DNA from: Paramesorhizobium deserti | Lineage (GTDB): Bacteria > Pseudomonadota > Alphaproteobacteria > Rhizobiales > Rhizobiaceae | Direction of reading: 5' to 3' | Assembly (NCBI RefSeq): GCF_001558695.1 | Contig: NZ_LNTU01000001.1 | Coordinates: forward strand, 744,001-808,000 | DNA length: 64,000 nt | In this document: positions 28,417 through 38,910 of the stretch, in pieces | Layout of the letters: each line of letters begins with the position of its first letter | How positions within the stretch are numbered: position 1 is the first letter of the stretch | Program-made: the position numbers and the translations under genes | Notes under the pieces: model-generated | Seen by the model: only the letters and a program-made list of their open reading frames with translations | Told to the model about the DNA's origin: nothing | Database searches by the model: none

Positions 28417-28582
28417 AAATTCCATCGTTTCCGGAAAGACACAGGGCCACATTTCCCCCATTTAATCAACATGTTCCGTGCTTCAGCCGAATCGCCACCC
28501 AAGCATATGGCGTGATCGGCACACCATTTCCAGTTGTTCTCCGCGTTTTTTGAACCCGAATCCAGCATCGTCGGAGGCTGCC

Positions 28583-31500
28583 TTGATTTCCCGTTATCTG
28601 TTCAACAAGAAAAAATTATTGTCGTCAGTTTCAGCCGTATCGGTCATCGGTGCAGCGGTTCTCCTGCCGACGCCGTCGCAGGCAAACTGCATCACGTCTG
28701 GCCTGACGACGAGCTGCGATACCTCTGCGCCCAATCCCTATACCCAAACGATAGGTGTCGGCGGCGCGACAGAAGACAACCGGATCGTCATCGTCGAGTC
28801 CGGCTCGCAGATCAATGTCAGCGAATACAACGCCATCTCGCTCGGCAACAACGTAAACATCATAGTGAAGAGTGGTGCAACCGTCAGCAGCACTACAAAC
28901 ACACAGGGAATATTCGGCCCCAACTCCTTGGGCACCAACACTATCGATTTCCTCAGCAACGGAACGATTACGATAGAGGAAGGTGCGGCGGTCGAGAATC
29001 TTGGGACCGCGGGGAATGCGGAAGCGATCAACTATACCGGTGAAGGAACCACAATCATCAACAATGGCCGAATCTATTCCGCTTACACAGCAGCCATCTT
29101 TTTTGAGAACTCCACGGCCGGGCTCAATACCATCATCAATAACGAGACTGGTGTGATAAGTACCGGAGTGTCTGGAGGGCCAACCGGGGGCAACGTGATT
29201 GGCACCAGCGGAAGTGGCCGCACGGAATTCATCAACAAGGGCCGGATCGAAGGCAATCTGCTCTTTGCAGGCGGCGATGATATCCTGCACCTTTTCGCCG
29301 GCTCCATCATCACCGGCAGCATGGATGGCAGCGGCGGGACAGACCAGATCTTCTTGGAAGGGGATGGCGACGATGTCATGGCCGGCAATCTCGACGGCTT
29401 CGAGGAGTTCACCAAGCAGGGCACCGGCACCTGGACGCTGAGCGGCTCGATTGCCGGTCTCACCAAGGTCGACATCAAGGAAGGCACGCTGGTGCTGACC
29501 GGAAACAATTCCAGCGCCGCGGGCATCATCACCGTGGATCCCGGCGCGACCCTGGCGGCGCGCGCCCAGAGCCTGCCGTCACAGGTGCACAACGACAATG
29601 GCTCGGTGCAGTTCCTGCAGACCGACAACGGTGCCTATGGTGGCGTCGTCTCGGGCGGCGGCGGGATTATCAAGAAGGATGCCGGCACGCTGACGCTGAC
29701 GGGGATCAACACCTATACGGGCGGAACAGTCGTGAAGGAAGGACTCGTCAACGTCTCCTCCGACGCCAATCTGGGCGATCTGTCGGGCGGCGTGACGCTC
29801 GACGGCGGGGGGCTGCAATTCGGCGCGGCCTTCGCCATGAAGCACAATATTACGCTCGCCGCCGGCAACGGCACGATCGACACCATGGCCTATCAGAGCG
29901 GCATAGACGGCATCATCGACGGCGCCGGCGGCTTGACGAAGACCGGCTCTGGCGCACTGACCCTGACGGGAAAGAACACCTACAAGGGCGAGACCAAGGT
30001 CAGCGCCGGCAGCCTGATCATCGACGGCAACCAGTTGGCGGCGACGGGGCGCGTGAGCGTCGACAACGGCGCGATGCTTTCCGGCAAAGGCGTGGTCGGC
30101 GGTGATGTCGCGATTGGCGACGGCGGCATCCTGCAGGTCTCCAGCGATGCCGGCGGCGCGCGGGCGCTGACGATCAAGGGCGATCTCTCGCTGCAGCAGA
30201 CCTCCACGATCAACTATTCCTATGGCCAGGCAGCCGGCGGCGCGCCGGCCAACGTGCTGGCGGTCAATGTCGGCGGCGACCTGACGCTCGACGGCACCAT
30301 CAACATCAACAACAGCTCCGGCGCCAACTTCCCCGTGCCCGGTCTCTACCGGCTGATCAACTATGCCGGCACGCTGACCGACAACGGCGTCACGCTCGGC
30401 ACCCGTCCGTCAGGCGATTATTTCATCCAGACCTCGGTCGACCACCAGGTCAACCTGATCAGCTATGTCGGTGCCAGCGCCAATTTCTGGGACGGGGCGG
30501 GCGGGGCGCGCAACAATGGCAAGATCGAGGGCGGCGACGGCGTCTGGCAGGCCGACGGCGGCAACGACAACTGGACCGAGAAGACGGGCCGGGTCAACGT
30601 GCCCTACACTGACAACAATTTCGCTATCTTCACCGGCAAGGCCGGCACGGTGACCGTCGACAACAGCAAAGGCAATGTGCGCTCCGGCGGCATGCAGTTC
30701 GCCGTGGACGGCTATGTCGTCAAGGGCGGCGACATCGCGCTGGGTGAGGACCCGGCGACGATCCGGGTCGGCGACGGCACCACGGCCGGGGCCAATTACG
30801 ACGCCACCATCGCGTCCCGCCTCACCGGCACGGCGAAGCTCGTCAAGGCCGATCTCGGCAGGCTGGTGCTGACCGGCGAGAACAGCTACAGCGGCGGCAC
30901 CTCCGTCGAGGGCGGTGTGCTGCAGCTCGGCGACGGCGGCACATCGGGCAGCATCGCCGGCGCGGTGGCGCTTGCCGGCGGCACCAGCCTCGTCGCCAAC
31001 CGCTCCAACAGCCTGACGCTCGGCGCCGCCATCTCCGGCGACGGCAAGGTGGTGCAGGCCGGAACAGGCACGACCATGCTGCGGGGCGCCAACAGCTATA
31101 AGGGCGGCACCGAGATCAACGCTGGCATTCTCAATGTCGCCTCCGCCGCCAATCTCGGCGACGCCACGAGTCATGTGACGTTGAATGGCGGCACATTGCA
31201 ATCAGGCGCGTCCTTCGAGACGGCTCACGCCATCACGCTGGCGGCGGCCGAGAACACCATAGACACACAGGGTTTCAACACCACGCTCACCGGCAGCATC
31301 GACGGGCCGGGCGCGCTGATCAAAACCGGCACGGGGCGGCTCAGCCTGGCGGCAGCGGAGAGCTATGCCGGCAGGAGCATCATCAGCCAAGGCACACTGG
31401 CGCTCACCGGCGCCGGCGACATCGGCGCGTCAAGCGGGGTGACGGCGGACGGCAGCTTCGACATATCCGGCATCGCCACCGACACCACCGCGATCAAGGC

Positions 31501-33427
31501 CCTGTCCGGCGGGCGCGACGGCCGCGTCCATCTGGGGGACAAGGGGCTCGTCATCACCGCTGCGCAAAATGACGACTTCGAAGGCGTCATCGACAGCGCC
31601 GGCGGGCTTGCCGTCACCGGCGGCAGGCAGATATTCTCGGGCGACAACGAATATACCGGCGGCACGCAAATCGCCAAGGGCAGCGCATTGCAGCTCGGCA
31701 GCGGCGGCACATCAGGCAGCGTCAAAGGGGGCATCGCGATCGACGGGCTGCTCGCCTTCAACCGCTCCGACATCTTCACCGCCGACAATATCCTCACCGG
31801 TCCTGGCACGCTAGAGCAGATCGGCAGGGGCACCACCATTCTGACGGCCGAAAATGCTGGCTTCACCGGCACCACCAATATCCACGCTGGCGTGCTGCAG
31901 GTCGACCGCGGGCTCGGCGGGATGATGAACGTGCTTGCCGGCGGCATGCTGCAGGGCGAGGGCATGGTCGGCTCCACCGTCAATGCCGGCACCATCGCCC
32001 CCGGCAATGGCGGCAAGGATCTGGGCACCCTCACCATCCAGGGCGACTATGCCGGCAATGACGGCGTCGTCAGGCTCAACACCGTGCTCGGCGACGACGC
32101 CTCGCAAACCGACTTGCTGGTCATCACCGGCAACACCTCCGGCGCCTCGAAGGTCCGGGTGCTCAACCGCGGCGGGCTCGGCGCCCAGACCGAGGACGGC
32201 ATCAAGATCATCGATGTCGGCGGCCAGTCGGACGGCACCTTCGCACTCATCGGCGACTACACCACCAAGGACGGCAAGAGCGCCGTCGTCGGCGGCGCCT
32301 ATGCCTACACGCTGCACAAGAACGGCCTCGCCTCCCCCACCTCCCGCGACGGCGACTGGTACCTGCGCAGCGAATATATCTTCCAGCCCGGCGCACCCCT
32401 CTACGAGGTCTACGGCCAGGTGCTCAACCACCTCAACACGCTGCCCACCCTCGCCGAGCGCACCGGCAACCGCTACTGGGCCGGGGCCGGCCACATGCCC
32501 ATCCCGCAGGGCGACGGCCCGGGCATCCCCGACGAAGCCGTTCCCTACCCGCCCGAGAGCGGACCGGCCCAGGCCTTCCTCGAGACCGGCGTCCTGATCT
32601 GGAACCGCATCGAGGCCGCCCATGCCCATCACCGGCCCGACACATCTACCACCGGGGCCGAATACGACATCGACCTGTGGAAGGGGCAGATCGGCATCGA
32701 CGGCCAGTTCCACGAGGACGAGCGCGGCAGGCTGATCGGCAGCATCTGGGTCAGCTATGGCAATGCCTCGGCCGATATCGAGGCCTTCTATGGCGACGGC
32801 AAGATCGAAACCAGCGGCTACGGCCTGGGCGGCGCGCTCACCTGGTATGACGACAGCGGCTATTATCTCGACGGCCAGACCCAGATCACCTGGTTCGACA
32901 GCGATCTCAACTCCTCAACCCTCGGCCGCACCCTCCTCGACGGCGACAAGGCCCTGGGCTATGCGCTCTCCAGCGAAACCGGCCTGCGCTACAGCCTCAC
33001 CGACAGCTGGACGCTGACCCCCCAGGCCCAGCTCACCTATGTCCAGGCCATGCTCGACGACTTCACCGATCCCTATGGCGCGCGGGTGGCCTTCGACCGC
33101 AACGCCAAGCTGACCGCCCGCCTCGGCCTGGCGGCCAACTACCAGACGGCCTGGCAGGACGCAGAGGGCTATGGGCGGCGCGCCGATCTCTACGGCATCG
33201 CCAATCTCCATCAGGAGTTCCTCGACGAGATCAAGGTGAAAATCTCGGGCCATCCGCTCGAGAACAGCGAGGAGAAGACCTGGGCCGAGATCGGCGCCGG
33301 CGGCACCTATAACTGGAACGACGACCGCTATGTGCTGTTCGGCACCCTCAGCGCGAGAACGGGCCTCACCCATCCTGGCGACAGCTATAAATTCGCCGGC
33401 AATGCGGGGTTCAAGGTCAAGTGGTAG
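28583..33427 (+). CDS. Large autotransporter with PATR repeats
   Basis: A 1614-aa secreted or surface protein. The TTG start at 28583 is chosen because GGAGG lies five bases upstream and the next residues (LISRYLFNKKKLLSS, then a hydrophobic core to ...PSQA) make a complete signal peptide. About eight passenger-associated strand repeats (PATR; TGTWTLSG, AGTLTLTGINTYTGGT, SGALTLTGKNTYKGET, LGRLVLTGENSYSGGT and similar) build a long beta-helix between residues 270 and 1160. The last 280 residues form a barrel ending GFKVKW, with a C-terminal aromatic. Two long modules are duplicated inside the passenger. No catalytic motif is visible; adhesion is a guess. Confidence 0.92.
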   Translation: MISRYLFNKKKLLSSVSAVSVIGAAVLLPTPSQANCITSGLTTSCDTSAPNPYTQTIGVGGATEDNRIVIVESGSQINVSEYNAISLGNNVNIIVKSGATVSSTTNTQGIFGPNSLGTNTIDFLSNGTITIEEGAAVENLGTAGNAEAINYTGEGTTIINNGRIYSAYTAAIFFENSTAGLNTIINNETGVISTGVSGGPTGGNVIGTSGSGRTEFINKGRIEGNLLFAGGDDILHLFAGSIITGSMDGSGGTDQIFLEGDGDDVMAGNLDGFEEFTKQGTGTWTLSGSIAGLTKVDIKEGTLVLTGNNSSAAGIITVDPGATLAARAQSLPSQVHNDNGSVQFLQTDNGAYGGVVSGGGGIIKKDAGTLTLTGINTYTGGTVVKEGLVNVSSDANLGDLSGGVTLDGGGLQFGAAFAMKHNITLAAGNGTIDTMAYQSGIDGIIDGAGGLTKTGSGALTLTGKNTYKGETKVSAGSLIIDGNQLAATGRVSVDNGAMLSGKGVVGGDVAIGDGGILQVSSDAGGARALTIKGDLSLQQTSTINYSYGQAAGGAPANVLAVNVGGDLTLDGTININNSSGANFPVPGLYRLINYAGTLTDNGVTLGTRPSGDYFIQTSVDHQVNLISYVGASANFWDGAGGARNNGKIEGGDGVWQADGGNDNWTEKTGRVNVPYTDNNFAIFTGKAGTVTVDNSKGNVRSGGMQFAVDGYVVKGGDIALGEDPATIRVGDGTTAGANYDATIASRLTGTAKLVKADLGRLVLTGENSYSGGTSVEGGVLQLGDGGTSGSIAGAVALAGGTSLVANRSNSLTLGAAISGDGKVVQAGTGTTMLRGANSYKGGTEINAGILNVASAANLGDATSHVTLNGGTLQSGASFETAHAITLAAAENTIDTQGFNTTLTGSIDGPGALIKTGTGRLSLAAAESYAGRSIISQGTLALTGAGDIGASSGVTADGSFDISGIATDTTAIKALSGGRDGRVHLGDKGLVITAAQNDDFEGVIDSAGGLAVTGGRQIFSGDNEYTGGTQIAKGSALQLGSGGTSGSVKGGIAIDGLLAFNRSDIFTADNILTGPGTLEQIGRGTTILTAENAGFTGTTNIHAGVLQVDRGLGGMMNVLAGGMLQGEGMVGSTVNAGTIAPGNGGKDLGTLTIQGDYAGNDGVVRLNTVLGDDASQTDLLVITGNTSGASKVRVLNRGGLGAQTEDGIKIIDVGGQSDGTFALIGDYTTKDGKSAVVGGAYAYTLHKNGLASPTSRDGDWYLRSEYIFQPGAPLYEVYGQVLNHLNTLPTLAERTGNRYWAGAGHMPIPQGDGPGIPDEAVPYPPESGPAQAFLETGVLIWNRIEAAHAHHRPDTSTTGAEYDIDLWKGQIGIDGQFHEDERGRLIGSIWVSYGNASADIEAFYGDGKIETSGYGLGGALTWYDDSGYYLDGQTQITWFDSDLNSSTLGRTLLDGDKALGYALSSETGLRYSLTDSWTLTPQAQLTYVQAMLDDFTDPYGARVAFDRNAKLTARLGLAANYQTAWQDAEGYGRRADLYGIANLHQEFLDEIKVKISGHPLENSEEKTWAEIGAGGTYNWNDDRYVLFGTLSARTGLTHPGDSYKFAGNAGFKVKW

Positions 33428-34068: not shown

Positions 34069-37000
34069 CTATTCCGCCGCTTCCACCGATGTGGCCCGCT
34101 CGCCGGGGACATAATTGAGAATCGGCCCGAGCCAGCGTTCCACCTCACTCACGGCCATCTTCTTGCGGGCGGCGTAGTCTTCCACCTGGTCGCGCTCGAC
34201 CTTGGCGACGCCGAAATAATAGCTTTCGGGATGGGCGAGGTAGAGGCCCGAGACGGAGGAGCCCGGCCACATCGAATAGCCTTCGGTCAAGCTCACGCCC
34301 GCCGCCCTTTCCGCGTCGAGCAGGCGGAAGAGCGTCGCCTTCTCGGTATGGTCCGGCTGCGCGGGATAACCCGGAGCGGGGCGGATGCCTTCATAGCCCT
34401 CGGCGATCAGCTCGTCGCCGGTCAGGCTTTCATCCGGCGCATAACCCCAGAACTCCTTGCGCACGCGCTCATGCATCAATTCGGCGAAAGCTTCCGCGAA
34501 GCGGTCGGCCAGCGCCTTGACGAGGATCGAGGAATAATCGTCATTGGCGCGCTCGAAGCGCTCGGCAATCGCCACCTCCTCGATACCCGCCGTCACGACG
34601 AAGCCGCCGAGATAGTCCGGCTTCATCCCGAGCGGCGCGACGAAATCGGAGAGCGCCACATTCGGCTTGTCGCCGCGCCGGGAAAGCTGCTGGCGGAGGG
34701 TGAAGAAGGTAGCGAGGTCTTGCTTGCGGCTCTCATCGGTGAAGAGCCGGATGTCGTCGCCGACGCTGTTGGCCGGCCAGAAGCCGATGACTGCGCGCGG
34801 ACGGAACCATTTTTCGTCGATGATCTTCTTCAGCATCGCCTTCGCATCCGCATAAAGCTGGCGCGCGGCTTCGCCCTGCTTCTCGTCATCGAGAATGGCG
34901 GGGAAGCGGCCCTTCAGCTCCCAGGTCTGGAAGAAGGGCGTCCAGTCGATATAGCGGGACAACTCCTCCAGATCCCAGTTCTCGAAGGCGCGGGTTCCGA
35001 GGAAGCTGGGCTTCGGCGGGGTGTAGGCGTCCCAATCGATCAGTAACGCGTTGGCCCTGGCGCGGGCGAGCGGCAGGCGGAGCTTTTCCGCCTCGTTGCG
35101 CGCATGGGCGGCGGCAACCTTGGCATATTCGTCGCGGACCGACTGGATGTAATTTTCCCGCATGTCCGGCGACAAAAGATTGGAGACGACGCCGACGGCG
35201 CGGCTGGCATCCACCACATAGACCGTCTGGCCCTTCTCATAGCGCGGATGGATCTTGACCGCCGTATGCACGCGGCTGGTGGTCGCGCCGCCGATCAGCA
35301 GCGGGATGTCGAAGCCCTCGCGCTCCATCTCGGCGGCGACATGCGCCATCTCATCGAGCGACGGTGTGATCAGCCCGGAGAGGCCGATGATATCGACCTT
35401 TTCCTCGCGCGCCACCTGAAGGATCTTCTGCGCCGGCACCATGACGCCGAGATCGATGATCTCGTAATTGTTGCAGGCGAGCACAACGCCGACAATGTTC
35501 TTGCCGATGTCATGCACATCGCCCTTGACGGTCGCCATCAGCACCTTGCCGGCGCTCTGGCGCTCGCCGCTGCCGCCGTTCAGGCGCTTTTCCTCTTCCA
35601 TGTAGGGCAGCAACACCGCCACCGCCTGCTTCATGACGCGCGCGGATTTCACCACTTGCGGCAGGAACATCTTGCCGGAGCCGAACAGATCGCCCACCAC
35701 ATTCATCCCTGCCATCAGCGGCCCTTCGATGACGTGGAGCGGACGTTCGGCCTTGAGACGCGCTTCCTCGGTGTCGGCCTCGATATATTCGGTGATGCCG
35801 TTGACGAGCGCGTGCTCCAGACGCTTTTCGACAGGCCATTCGCGCCAGGAAAGGTCGCGCTCCCGAGCCTCCTTGCCGGCGCCGCCCTTGAAGCGCTCGG
35901 CGAGTTCCAGGAGGCGCTCCGTCGCATCAAGGCGGCGGTTGAGCACCACATCCTCGCAGGCCTCGCGCAATTCCGGCTCGATCGATTCATAGACCGCCAG
36001 CTGCCCGGCATTGACGATGCCCATATCCATGCCCGCCTGAATGGCGTGGTACAGAAAAACGGCGTGCATCGCCTCGCGCACCGGCTCGTTGCCGCGGAAG
36101 GAGAAGGAGAGGTTCGACACACCGCCGGAGACATGGACATGCGGCAAGGTTTTGGTAATCGCGCGCGTGGCTTCGATGAAATCGACGCCATAATTGTTAT
36201 GCTCCTCGATGCCGGTGGCGACGGCGAAGATATTCGGATCGAAGATGATGTCTTCGGGCGGGAAGCCCACTTTTTCCGTCAGCAGCCTGTAGGCGCGGGT
36301 GCATATCTCCACCTTGCGCGCCTCGGTATCCGCCTGTCCCTGCTCATCGAAGGCCATGACGACCACCGCGGCGCCATAGGCGCGGCAGAGCAGTGCGTGA
36401 TGCAGGAAGGCTTCCTCGCCCTCCTTCATCGAGATGGAGTTGACCACCGGCTTGCCCTGCACGCATTTGAGCCCCGCTTCGATCACCTCCCATTTGGAGG
36501 AATCGATCATGACGGGCACGCGGGCGATATCCGGCTCGGCGGCGATGAGGTTCAGGAACTCGGTCATCGCCTTCTGCGAATCGATCAGCCCCTCATCCAT
36601 GTTGACGTCGATGATTTGCGCGCCGTTCTCCACCTGGTCGCGGGCGACGTCGAGCGCGGCAGCGTAATCGCCCGCCGTGATCAGCTTGCGGAAGCGGGCC
36701 GAGCCGGTGACATTGGTGCGCTCGCCGACATTGACGAAGGGGATGTCCTTGGTCAGCGTGAACGGCTCCAGCCCGGAAAGCCGCATCAGCGGCTCAGCCT
36801 CGGGGATGGCGCGCGGTTTGTGCCGGGAAACGGCTTCGGCGATGGCGCGGATATGGTCGGGCGTCGAGCCGCAGCAGCCGCCGACGACATTGACCAGCCC
36901 CTCGCGGGCGAAGTCCTCGATCTGCGCGGCCATCGCCTCGGGGCTTTCGTCATACTGGCCGAACTCGTTGGGCAGCCCGGCATTGGGATAAGCACAGACG

Positions 37001-37848
37001 AAGGTATCGGCGATGCCCGATAGCTCCGCCAGATGGGCGCGCATGGCGTTTGCGCCGAGCGCGCAGTTGAGCCCGATGGTGAAGGGCCGGGCATGGCGCA
37101 GCGAATACCAGAAGGCCGTCGGCGTCTGGCCGGAAAGCGTGCGGCCCGAGAGATCGGTGATTGTGCCTGATATCATGACAGGCAGGCGGACGCCCTTTTC
37201 CGCGAAGATTTCTTCCGTGGCAAAGACCGCCGCCTTGGCGTTCAGCGTATCGAAGATGGTCTCGATCAGGATGATGTCGGCCCCGCCATCGATGAGGCCC
37301 CTCACTTGCTCCGCATAAGCGAGTTTGAGATCATCGAAGGTGACGGCGCGGAAGCCCGGATTGTTGACGTCGGGCGAGATGGAGGCGGTGCGGTTGGTGG
37401 GTCCCAGCGCGCCGGCGACGAAGCGGCGGCGGCCATCGGTCTGTTCCGCCCGAAGCGCGGCGCGGCGGGCCAGCCGCGCGCCGTCGCGGTTCAGCTCATA
37501 GACCATATCCTCCATGCCGTAATCGGCCTGGGCGATAGAGGTGGAGGAAAAGGTGTTGGTTTCGAGGATATCGGCGCCGGCCATGGCATAGGCGTAATGG
37601 ATTTCCTCGATCGCCGCCGGCTGGGTCAGCGTCAGAAGATCATTGTTGCCCTGCAGATGGCATTCGCAGGCGGCGAAGCGCTCGCCGCGGAAATGCTCCT
37701 CATGGAAGCCGAGCCCCTGGATCTGCGTCCCCATCGCTCCATCGAGGATAAGGATACGCTCCCGCGCGGCCTTGGTCAGCGCCGCCAGCACTTCCGAACC
37801 GTCCGGCTTTGGCGCTTCCGGGCCAAAGAGATCATCGATGGAACTCAT
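34069..37848 (-). CDS. metH: Cobalamin-dependent methionine synthase
   Basis: A 1259-aa four-domain enzyme transferring the methyl group of methyl-tetrahydrofolate to homocysteine through methylcobalamin. Homocysteine domain (about 25-345) with zinc cysteines in GLNCALGA and GGCCGSTP; pterin-binding domain (about 360-620) with [16 protein letters not shown]; cobalamin domain (about 650-890) with the lower-ligand His in [11 protein letters not shown]-terminal SAM/reactivation domain (about 910-1240) ending LNYVPGE. Full length. A palindrome spans its promoter, and a cobalamin riboswitch lies further upstream beyond a small gene. Confidence 0.97.
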
Positions 37849-37895: not shown

Positions 37896-37924
37896 TTAAT
37901 GACATAAAGATATGTTTATGTCAA
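37896..37924 (-). promoter_or_regulatory. metH promoter with overlapping 22-bp palindrome (SahR-type operator candidate)
   Basis: On the minus strand, TTGACA (37919-37924), 17-base spacer, CATTAA (37896-37901). The perfect dyad GACATAAA-N6-TTTATGTC at 37901-37922 fills the space between the two boxes. Its shape and sequence (ATAAAGATAT core) resemble, from memory, the ArsR-type SahR operators predicted before methionine-cycle genes in alphaproteobacteria. Repression of metH by such a protein, relieved by S-adenosylhomocysteine, is the inference. Confidence 0.6.
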
Positions 37925-38021: not shown

Positions 38022-38270
38022 TTAATTCCGCAGCCTGGCCGGCCCCGCCAGCGAAGCGATCAGTGCAACGAACATCTCCCGCAATCGATGGGGCCCGGCC
38101 AGATTGCCGCGGTAGAGATCGAGCTTGCGCACCTCTTGCGCCGCGGCGGCGGCCATATCGGCCTCCTTCGGCAGCCATATAAGCCAGGCGAGGAAGATCT
38201 CCTCCGGCGATTTCTGTGCGATATTGCGACGTTCGGCGGTCGTCTTGGCTTGCAGTTCGGCAGTCGGCAT
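38022..38270 (-). CDS. Hypothetical 82-aa protein downstream of a cobalamin riboswitch
   Basis: No family recognised. The protein starts MPTAELQAKTTAERRNIAQK, then has SPEEIFLAWLIWLPKEADMA, an acidic-amphipathic helix, and ends AGPHRLREMFVALIASL. It is mostly helical with no signal peptide or metal motif. ATG 38270 has GGGGA five bases upstream; that ribosome site forms the 3' arm of a CCCCG/CGGGG hairpin (38275-38293 region), so translation could be gated. It is the only gene between the riboswitch and metH. Confidence 0.55.
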   Translation of the reverse strand: MPTAELQAKTTAERRNIAQKSPEEIFLAWLIWLPKEADMAAAAAQEVRKLDLYRGNLAGPHRLREMFVALIASLAGPARLRN

Positions 38271-38404
38271 CAAAATCCCCGATGATGTGGCGGGGACATT
38301 CAGGTGCACACATGCCGGACGGGTGATGGTCTGAAACCATCCGGGCAAGCGATACACCGGGACACCCCGCCCGTTGACCTCTAGCGGACGCTTCCGCGTC
38401 CCTT

Positions 38405-38582
38405 ATCGGGGCAGGTCTCCTGGCTCACGGGTCATCACTGCTGTCCGGCCTTCCCGATCCACGAAAGATCAGTGGCGTGATGAAACGACAACAGCTCGCC
38501 GCATACAGTTGCGGGGGCAGCGCCGGCCTTGCACTCCGAATAAGAGCACGCACCGGCTTCCCTCTTAGCCTTCTCGCCGTTT
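38405..38582 (-). ncRNA. Cobalamin (adenosylcobalamin) riboswitch
   Basis: Reading the minus strand, all conserved blocks occur in order: GGGAA with CGGTG (38541-38552 region), GCTGCCCCCGCAACTGTA, GCCACTG, CGGGAAGGCC, and the closing GAGCCAGGAGACCTGCC ending near 38410. This is the standard B12 aptamer. The expression platform probably lies between 38404 and the 82-aa gene at 38270, where a CCCCG/CGGGG hairpin covers that gene's ribosome site and is followed by ATTTT. Confidence 0.95.
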
Positions 38583-38596
38583 TAGCGCCTGTTCTT

Positions 38597-38624
38597 ATCC
38601 GAAAAGTCGCAGACTTTTCTGGAT
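38597..38624. repeat. Interspersed hairpin element 5' of the riboswitch
   Basis: ATCC GAAAAGTC GCA GACTTTTC T GGAT, followed by CATGCTC: a near-perfect 12-bp hairpin of the same family as the elements at 7002 and 14423. Confidence 0.6.
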
Positions 38625-38910
38625 CATGCTCAGCCCGACTCGAAGGAACCTCGATCGCTCCATTAGCACCGCGCGCTTTGATCCTGTCAACAAGAAGCGG
38701 CGGGCGACGGGACAAATGGCAGCGGAAAATTCAACCATCTGTGAAGCATCGGCGCAAAATGTGACCCAAAATCACGGGTTTATGCTGTCAATCCATCACC
38801 GCTGCGCCATAATTCTCTGCAAATGAGGATTGAAAGGGACATGTTTCCTGCGAATTGCCACCTGTGCTCCGATTGAGGGTATGGCACGGCAAGGCGCAGA
38901 AGGAGGTAAT
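38625..38910 (+). other. Leader region of the BA14K gene, no gene seen
   Basis: This stretch contains no convincing coding frame. It ends with AGGAGG at 38901-38906, the ribosome site of the BA14K gene. Riboswitch transcription runs the other way, so the promoter for BA14K should be here; TTGAAA near 38830 is one possible -35 box but no matching -10 box stands out. Confidence 0.4.

Follow-up and report, generated by a model that had tools for sequence, protein, structure and literature searches.

Which gene does a cobalamin riboswitch control when it stands upstream of metH, whose product itself depends on B12? Cobalamin riboswitches are typically OFF switches, and one placed before a B12-dependent enzyme is an old puzzle. 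The case studied here lies in a 64,000-nt stretch of the Paramesorhizobium deserti genome (contig NZ_LNTU01000001.1, positions 744,001–808,000; hereafter the window), in which an 82-amino-acid gene separates the riboswitch from metH. Our results argue that the switch is there for this small gene, which is probably a real part of coping with B12 shortage.

A riboswitch, a small gene without a family model and metH

The initial annotation had read the locus as a B12 aptamer on the minus strand, followed by a small gene of no known family and by B12-dependent metH, and all three elements were borne out (Table 1). The aptamer, an ordinary RF00174 member, scored 101.7 bits against a gathering score of 31.5 and matched model positions 19–172 of 189. 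The outer portion of the model was unmatched, apparently because of an insert in P2 that is present in the window and in two close relatives (L001 and L004) and missing from two others (L002 and L003) in the alignment. Its inverted repeat we take to resemble the intergenic repeats known from this bacterial group. Alignment to L003, whose switch fits the whole model, suggests that the full aptamer would span approximately 38660–38393. The probable promoter of the switch transcript has identical hexamers and spacing in aligned L002 and L003. Our consensus promoter scan, which requires the second hexamer to have an A in position 2 and therefore does not list this promoter, returned a single match, on the plus strand.

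Table 1 Features of the riboswitch–metH locus, in window coordinates and in order of transcription
Feature	Position	Strand	Evidence
Probable promoter of the switch transcript, TTGACA-17 nt-GCTAAT	38662..38690	-	by eye
Insert of ~44–52 nt with small inverted repeat, P2 part of the aptamer	38583..38635	-	alignment of relatives
Cobalamin riboswitch aptamer, RF00174	38410..38589	-	Rfam match, 101.7 bits, E 2.6e-24
Hairpin CCCCG/CGGGG covering the small-gene ribosome site (putative expression platform)	38277..38295	-	
82-aa small gene, family without existing model, ATG start	38022..38270	-	dN/dS, homologs
SahR-like 20-bp operator of metH, ACATAAACATATCTTTATGT	37902..37921	-	near-palindrome, shared among relatives
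metH, B12-dependent methionine synthase	34069..37848	-	TIGR02082 1749.1 bits, NF007024 2195.3 bits, five Pfam domains

The order switch–small frame–metH is common to the window and four close relatives: Mesorhizobium sp. RMAD-H1 (L001), Phyllobacterium phragmitis (L002), Phyllobacterium salinisoli (L003) and a genome recorded as Brucella endophytica (L004, the same place as G050). All four retain the switch and all four keep the frame, with 73–89% protein identity to the window; loss of the frame from relatives with the switch, which would have refuted the initial reading, was thus not seen among them. Codon comparison points to a gene under purifying selection, with dN/dS of 0.09–0.31 in all ten pairs of five sequences (first 74 codons; Nei–Gojobori method, experimental Biopython module). 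Together with homologs at long range, these ratios exclude a non-coding or chance frame.

The encoded protein matched nothing in Pfam at E up to 1 and nothing in the PDB, and its one NCBIfam match was meaningless (12.4 bits vs a cut-off of 650); across the three databases it reached neither a curated cut-off nor E < 1e-3. Pfam searches with 39 family members gave single-member matches only (best E 0.036), and a profile of the family matched none of the PDB chains up to an E of 1. The window protein scores 102.8 bits against this profile, which includes it, and thus combines the two marks of the family, a profile match and an upstream cobalamin switch. Where public annotation covers the protein (L105, L161 and L162) it is called hypothetical, and the literature that we searched, a body from which subscription journals are mostly absent, held no paper describing the family. 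New here is a so far undescribed protein that turns up under a known regulator in operons of several types.

The riboswitch is linked to the small gene rather than to metH

One account of the locus holds that the switch serves metH by read-through, with the small frame as a mere bystander. The small gene and metH are adjacent and run in the same direction, and a terminator scan between them (173 nt in the window, 65–318 nt in relatives) found none, so read-through into metH is possible. For a selection of 33 family genomes we inspected the 1.5 kb preceding metH, using the first 120 MetH residues as query and detecting switches by motif rather than by Rfam. A match was obtained in 23 genomes and the other 10 were dropped; two of the matches (L159 and L160) are frames of ~360 amino acids, not full MetH. 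The sole metH region with a small gene (G050) has a switch, and none of the 22 regions without the small gene showed one. G142, from the window's own genus and with a MetH 94.5% identical over the compared part, has neither small gene nor switch.

The switch is therefore tied to the presence of the small gene rather than of metH, and the count of 0 of 22 led us to reject metH as its target. Read-through as the purpose of the arrangement is strongly disfavoured, given this count, the presence of a switch at every small-gene place (see below) and the purifying selection on the supposedly incidental frame. This agrees with the initial annotation, which had named the small gene as the likely direct target, and it explains a B12 switch before a B12-dependent enzyme: metH is not what the switch is for. 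We likewise rejected a link to MetH itself. Full-length MetH above the cut-off was missing from 8 of 25 examined genomes, among them G350, which is 74% complete, and all 8 have a match to the small-protein family. The small gene is connected with B12 regulation as a whole and not specifically with metH.

The separate control of metH that had been proposed found a probable counterpart in the SahR-like near-palindrome upstream of the gene. The genome of the window holds two such sites at up to two mismatches, and a reversed-pattern control gave 0. One lies before metH and the other before a gene combining an ArsR-type HTH with a methyltransferase, so that metH and a candidate sahR gene have the operator in common by sequence; the latter gene fits a self-regulated SahR. 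Allowing up to three substitutions, the site was found in 22 of 23 metH upstream regions (missing in L160). Under a stricter rule it was present at 15 of 21 other metH starts (missing in L036, L047, L101, L102, L103 and L106). Beyond metH, the window encodes a 1,649-amino-acid frame with autotransporter-like repeats (28478–33427).

The small gene recurs under riboswitches in several operon types

Protein similarity searches in the family and the order yielded 46 distinct small-gene places, the window included; these are not 46 independent events, as several come from close relatives (L162 and L037 have near-identical neighbours). The searches were blind to the switch, which was never a criterion. 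A cobalamin switch lies upstream on the same strand in all 46, 43 of them by Rfam and three (two Phyllobacterium plasmids and G298:C89) by a two-part motif that recovers 53 of 55 known switches. By our chance estimate, based on six switches in 5.48 Mb, approximately 0.3% of positions lie within 5 kb downstream of a switch on the right strand.

Four arrangements account for these places: switch–small gene (18), switch–Rieske oxygenase–reductase–small gene (18), switch–nrdA–nrdB–small gene (7) and switch–btu genes–small gene (3). In 12 of the 18 places of the first type, metH comes next (the window, L001–L004, L038, L039, L040, L042, L044, L045 and L106). The NrdAB partner is a B12-independent ribonucleotide reductase, and two loci extend this type to switch–nrdA–nrdB–small–cobF–metH (L161 and L162); the small gene overlaps or abuts cobF in several genomes. 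In one of the Rieske places (L098), a gap of 1.5 kb separates the reductase gene from the small gene. By sequence, the switches before Rieske operons stand apart from those of the metH, nrd and lone types, which suggests recruitment of the small gene on more than one occasion, under switches of different lineages.

Individual loci showed further features. On a transposase-rich Sinorhizobium meliloti plasmid (L104:5320-6243), the small gene persists together with a switch and the terminal part of nrdB, as if a switch–nrdA–nrdB–small operon had lost its middle. In one switch–Rieske–reductase–small operon, the small gene is followed after 21 nt by a homocysteine S-methyltransferase-like gene (L050:8216-9277), and the region downstream of another switch–Rieske–small operon holds a match to the fluoride riboswitch (36.9 bits vs a cut-off of 34; L051:11324-11382).

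The small gene was found in at least 26 of 151 family genomes, a lower bound in that the family search scores only part of the candidates, and on this count most of the family can do without it. Searches at order and class level found it in 9 of 397 and 12 of 385 genomes, respectively, with the window's own genome in both and 13–14 candidates scored per genome. The class-level profile search of 385 genomes added 11 weak matches (E between 1.6e-13 and 7e-4). In five of these (L128, L131, L134, L135 and L137) a cobalamin switch lies 44–166 nt before the matched stretch, and the small gene stands alone under it with unrelated genes around. No cobalamin switch was found in stretches of 4.6–12 kb around the other six (L127, L129, L130, L132, L133 and L136), which include the best-scoring of the 11 (L127), a seemingly spurious frame (L133) and a match on a 4.6-kb contig (L132). 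Whether homologs always follow a B12 riboswitch, as the initial annotation had asked, thus receives a divided answer: they do at all 46 places in family and order, and no switch was seen in the stretches around 6 of the 11 distant matches. The distant relatives without a switch possibly form a broader superfamily; either the switch link is common and not universal in the wider class, or the profile catches such a superfamily there. Several of L127, L129, L130, L132 and L136 have basic tails. At L128:8253-8412, a manganese riboswitch (RF00080) lies close behind the cobalamin switch and small gene.

This distribution bears on whether the small gene is a leader or upstream frame, whose switch-set translation would tune metH by coupling or reinitiation. 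The lack of a terminator-like site before metH fits such a role, and B12 switches with regulatory upstream frames have been described in Mycobacterium tuberculosis (PMC11260477, in the part available to us). A leader would always stand directly before the gene that it regulates, however, and here the small gene comes after at least two large genes in 28 of 46 places, which makes such a role decidedly unlikely. In the five distant genomes with a switch, neither a metH nor a B12-pathway gene follows the small gene; its protein sequence is kept over long distances; and metH retains an operator of its own whether or not the small gene precedes it. A leader-only role was rejected, as homologs stand late or last in other switch operons or alone under a switch. 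The earlier suggestion of a new B12-related function rather than a mere leader therefore stands as far as the leader is concerned, and does not extend to which function it is.

A hairpin may place the small gene under riboswitch control

The ribosome site of the small gene, GGGG, lies inside the CCCCG/CGGGG hairpin, and the same stem occurs in L001–L004. Five further sequences (L038, L039, L040, L045 and L106) carry CCCCAAT/ATTGGGG in its place, a compensated change of a G–C to an A–T pair that also lengthens the stem. L042 and L044 can form a different stem and L035 a variant one; no clear equivalent was seen in L047, L052, L093, L094 and L104. The folding energy of the stretch is unexceptional (z −0.73 in the window, +0.28 to −2.46 over 18 sequences), and for this reason we regard sequestration of the ribosome site as a plausible rather than proven control mechanism.

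Partner enzymes and the nature of the protein

The commonest multi-gene partner of the small gene, at 18 of 46 places, is the Rieske pair, and the small protein could be an accessory subunit or maturation factor of this switch-controlled, GbcA/GbcB-like oxygenase and reductase that has moved to other switches elsewhere. Across 151 family genomes (oxygenase counted at ≥56% identity), the oxygenase occurs in 20 of 26 genomes with the small gene vs 36 of 125 without (Fisher p 6.8e-6, a value that ignores phylogeny). The window's own genome has the pair under its own switch with no small gene beside it (L111:3507-5872). Against such a role, the oxygenase is missing from 6 of the 26 family genomes that carry the small gene, as it is from G286 and from G641 and G869, which carry the lone form; and in the 36 genomes with the oxygenase counted above the small gene was not found. 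We consider a dedicated Rieske partner rather unlikely.

The genome of the window sets this in context with six cobalamin switches in 5.48 Mb. One precedes a btuB-like receptor and corrinoid protein, the second the Rieske pair, the third a periplasmic binding protein and permease, the fourth a nitroreductase-fold gene that, judging by its sequence, looks like bluB, the fifth the small gene at the present locus and the sixth cbtA with cob genes.

Among 39 members, the family shares the core motif PExxFLxWLxxxPxxxDxxxAAxxE, with one A kept in 39, W in 38, L in 37 and E in 35. The highest 19-residue hydropathy is 1.44, with no signal peptide-like or membrane stretch, and no His or Cys column is conserved (at most 14 of 39 members). 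Low hydropathy is a rule-of-thumb sign of a soluble protein, and on these two features we infer a soluble protein that does not bind metal; it is probably helical. A metal or cobalamin ligand provided by His or Cys was ruled out by the lack of a conserved column. A basic tail is present in 7 of 39 members and not in that of the window.

These features also weigh on the idea that the small protein serves the uptake, trafficking or synthesis of B12, for instance by acting as a chaperone. Such a service would suit the three genomes in which the small gene follows btu uptake genes, as well as the overlaps with cobF; it is harder to match with a protein that has neither a membrane or signal stretch nor a conserved His or Cys, and we judge it unlikely.

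A proposed trans-acting protein of the B12-shortage response

We favour, at a probability of roughly 60%, a B12-repressed small protein with a trans-acting role in the response to B12 shortage, with an adaptor for backup enzymes as our best guess at its activity. The small gene is coding, it is associated with the switch and its control is separate from that of metH. The remaining steps are proposed. Switch and small gene would be a single module transcribed from a promoter of its own. Binding of adenosylcobalamin would let the hairpin hide the ribosome site and so keep the small protein from being made; scarcity of B12 would allow its production. This OFF direction is taken by analogy from the known switch family, and the hairpin mechanism and the action in trans are inferred. 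No single partner accompanies the small gene everywhere, and we therefore expect its product, a small, soluble and probably helical protein of the cytosol, to act in trans. Our guess is that it may serve as an adaptor supporting the B12-free or B12-sparing backup enzymes that are most often co-encoded with it. metH would meanwhile run mainly from its own SahR-controlled promoter. As to scope, the switch could act on the whole operon in most genomes. More tentatively, the small proteins may form a family of B12-shortage proteins spread across the class, with switch and small gene as a mobile module that entered various B12-repressed operons in separate lineages. Its product could then be a general effector in trans that smooths the passage from B12-dependent to B12-independent metabolism, perhaps as a binding partner of MetH, NrdAB or the Rieske pair.

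As controls of synthesis, uptake and isozymes, B12 switches generally count as well understood. A conserved protein without a model, found under these switches in unrelated operons, suggests a missing player in survival of B12 shortage. It also makes two old puzzles testable, namely the role of the Rieske pair and the presence of a B12 switch before a B12-dependent enzyme.

Comparison with known systems

The frequent operon partners of the small gene are similar to glycine betaine monooxygenase GbcA/GbcB (NF058607 and NF058606). Two scanned representatives scored below the curated cut-offs (509.5 vs 670 and 352.6 vs 500), so that no substrate assignment is implied. Such a B12-regulated pair was reportedly named ardX–frdX by Rodionov in 2003. 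In S. meliloti, a cobalamin switch precedes smc00982, a likely dioxygenase (PMC2245857 and PMC2848018, as far as the available parts go).

For metH, the available parts of PMC4239095 and PMC8877191 describe a core target of SahR in alphaproteobacteria, with a 20-bp palindrome. The present metH is alike in its predicted 20-bp site; the SahR regulon differs in that it concerns metH only, whereas the small gene stands under a B12 switch. RF00174 regulons of Alphaproteobacteria comprise genes for the synthesis and uptake of B12, for cobalt transport and for isozymes of B12-dependent enzymes (PMC3766115, available part). The small-gene loci share with them the same aptamer and the same regulon classes, and differ in a small protein of a kind that is not among the classes listed in that part. 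A formal parallel is found in M. tuberculosis, which provides an OFF-switch example and has riboswitch-associated upstream frames at metE and ppe2 (PMC11260477, available part). Both systems place a small frame beside a B12 switch; the mycobacterial frame acts in cis on the next gene, whereas here a conserved protein is encoded behind large genes or alone.
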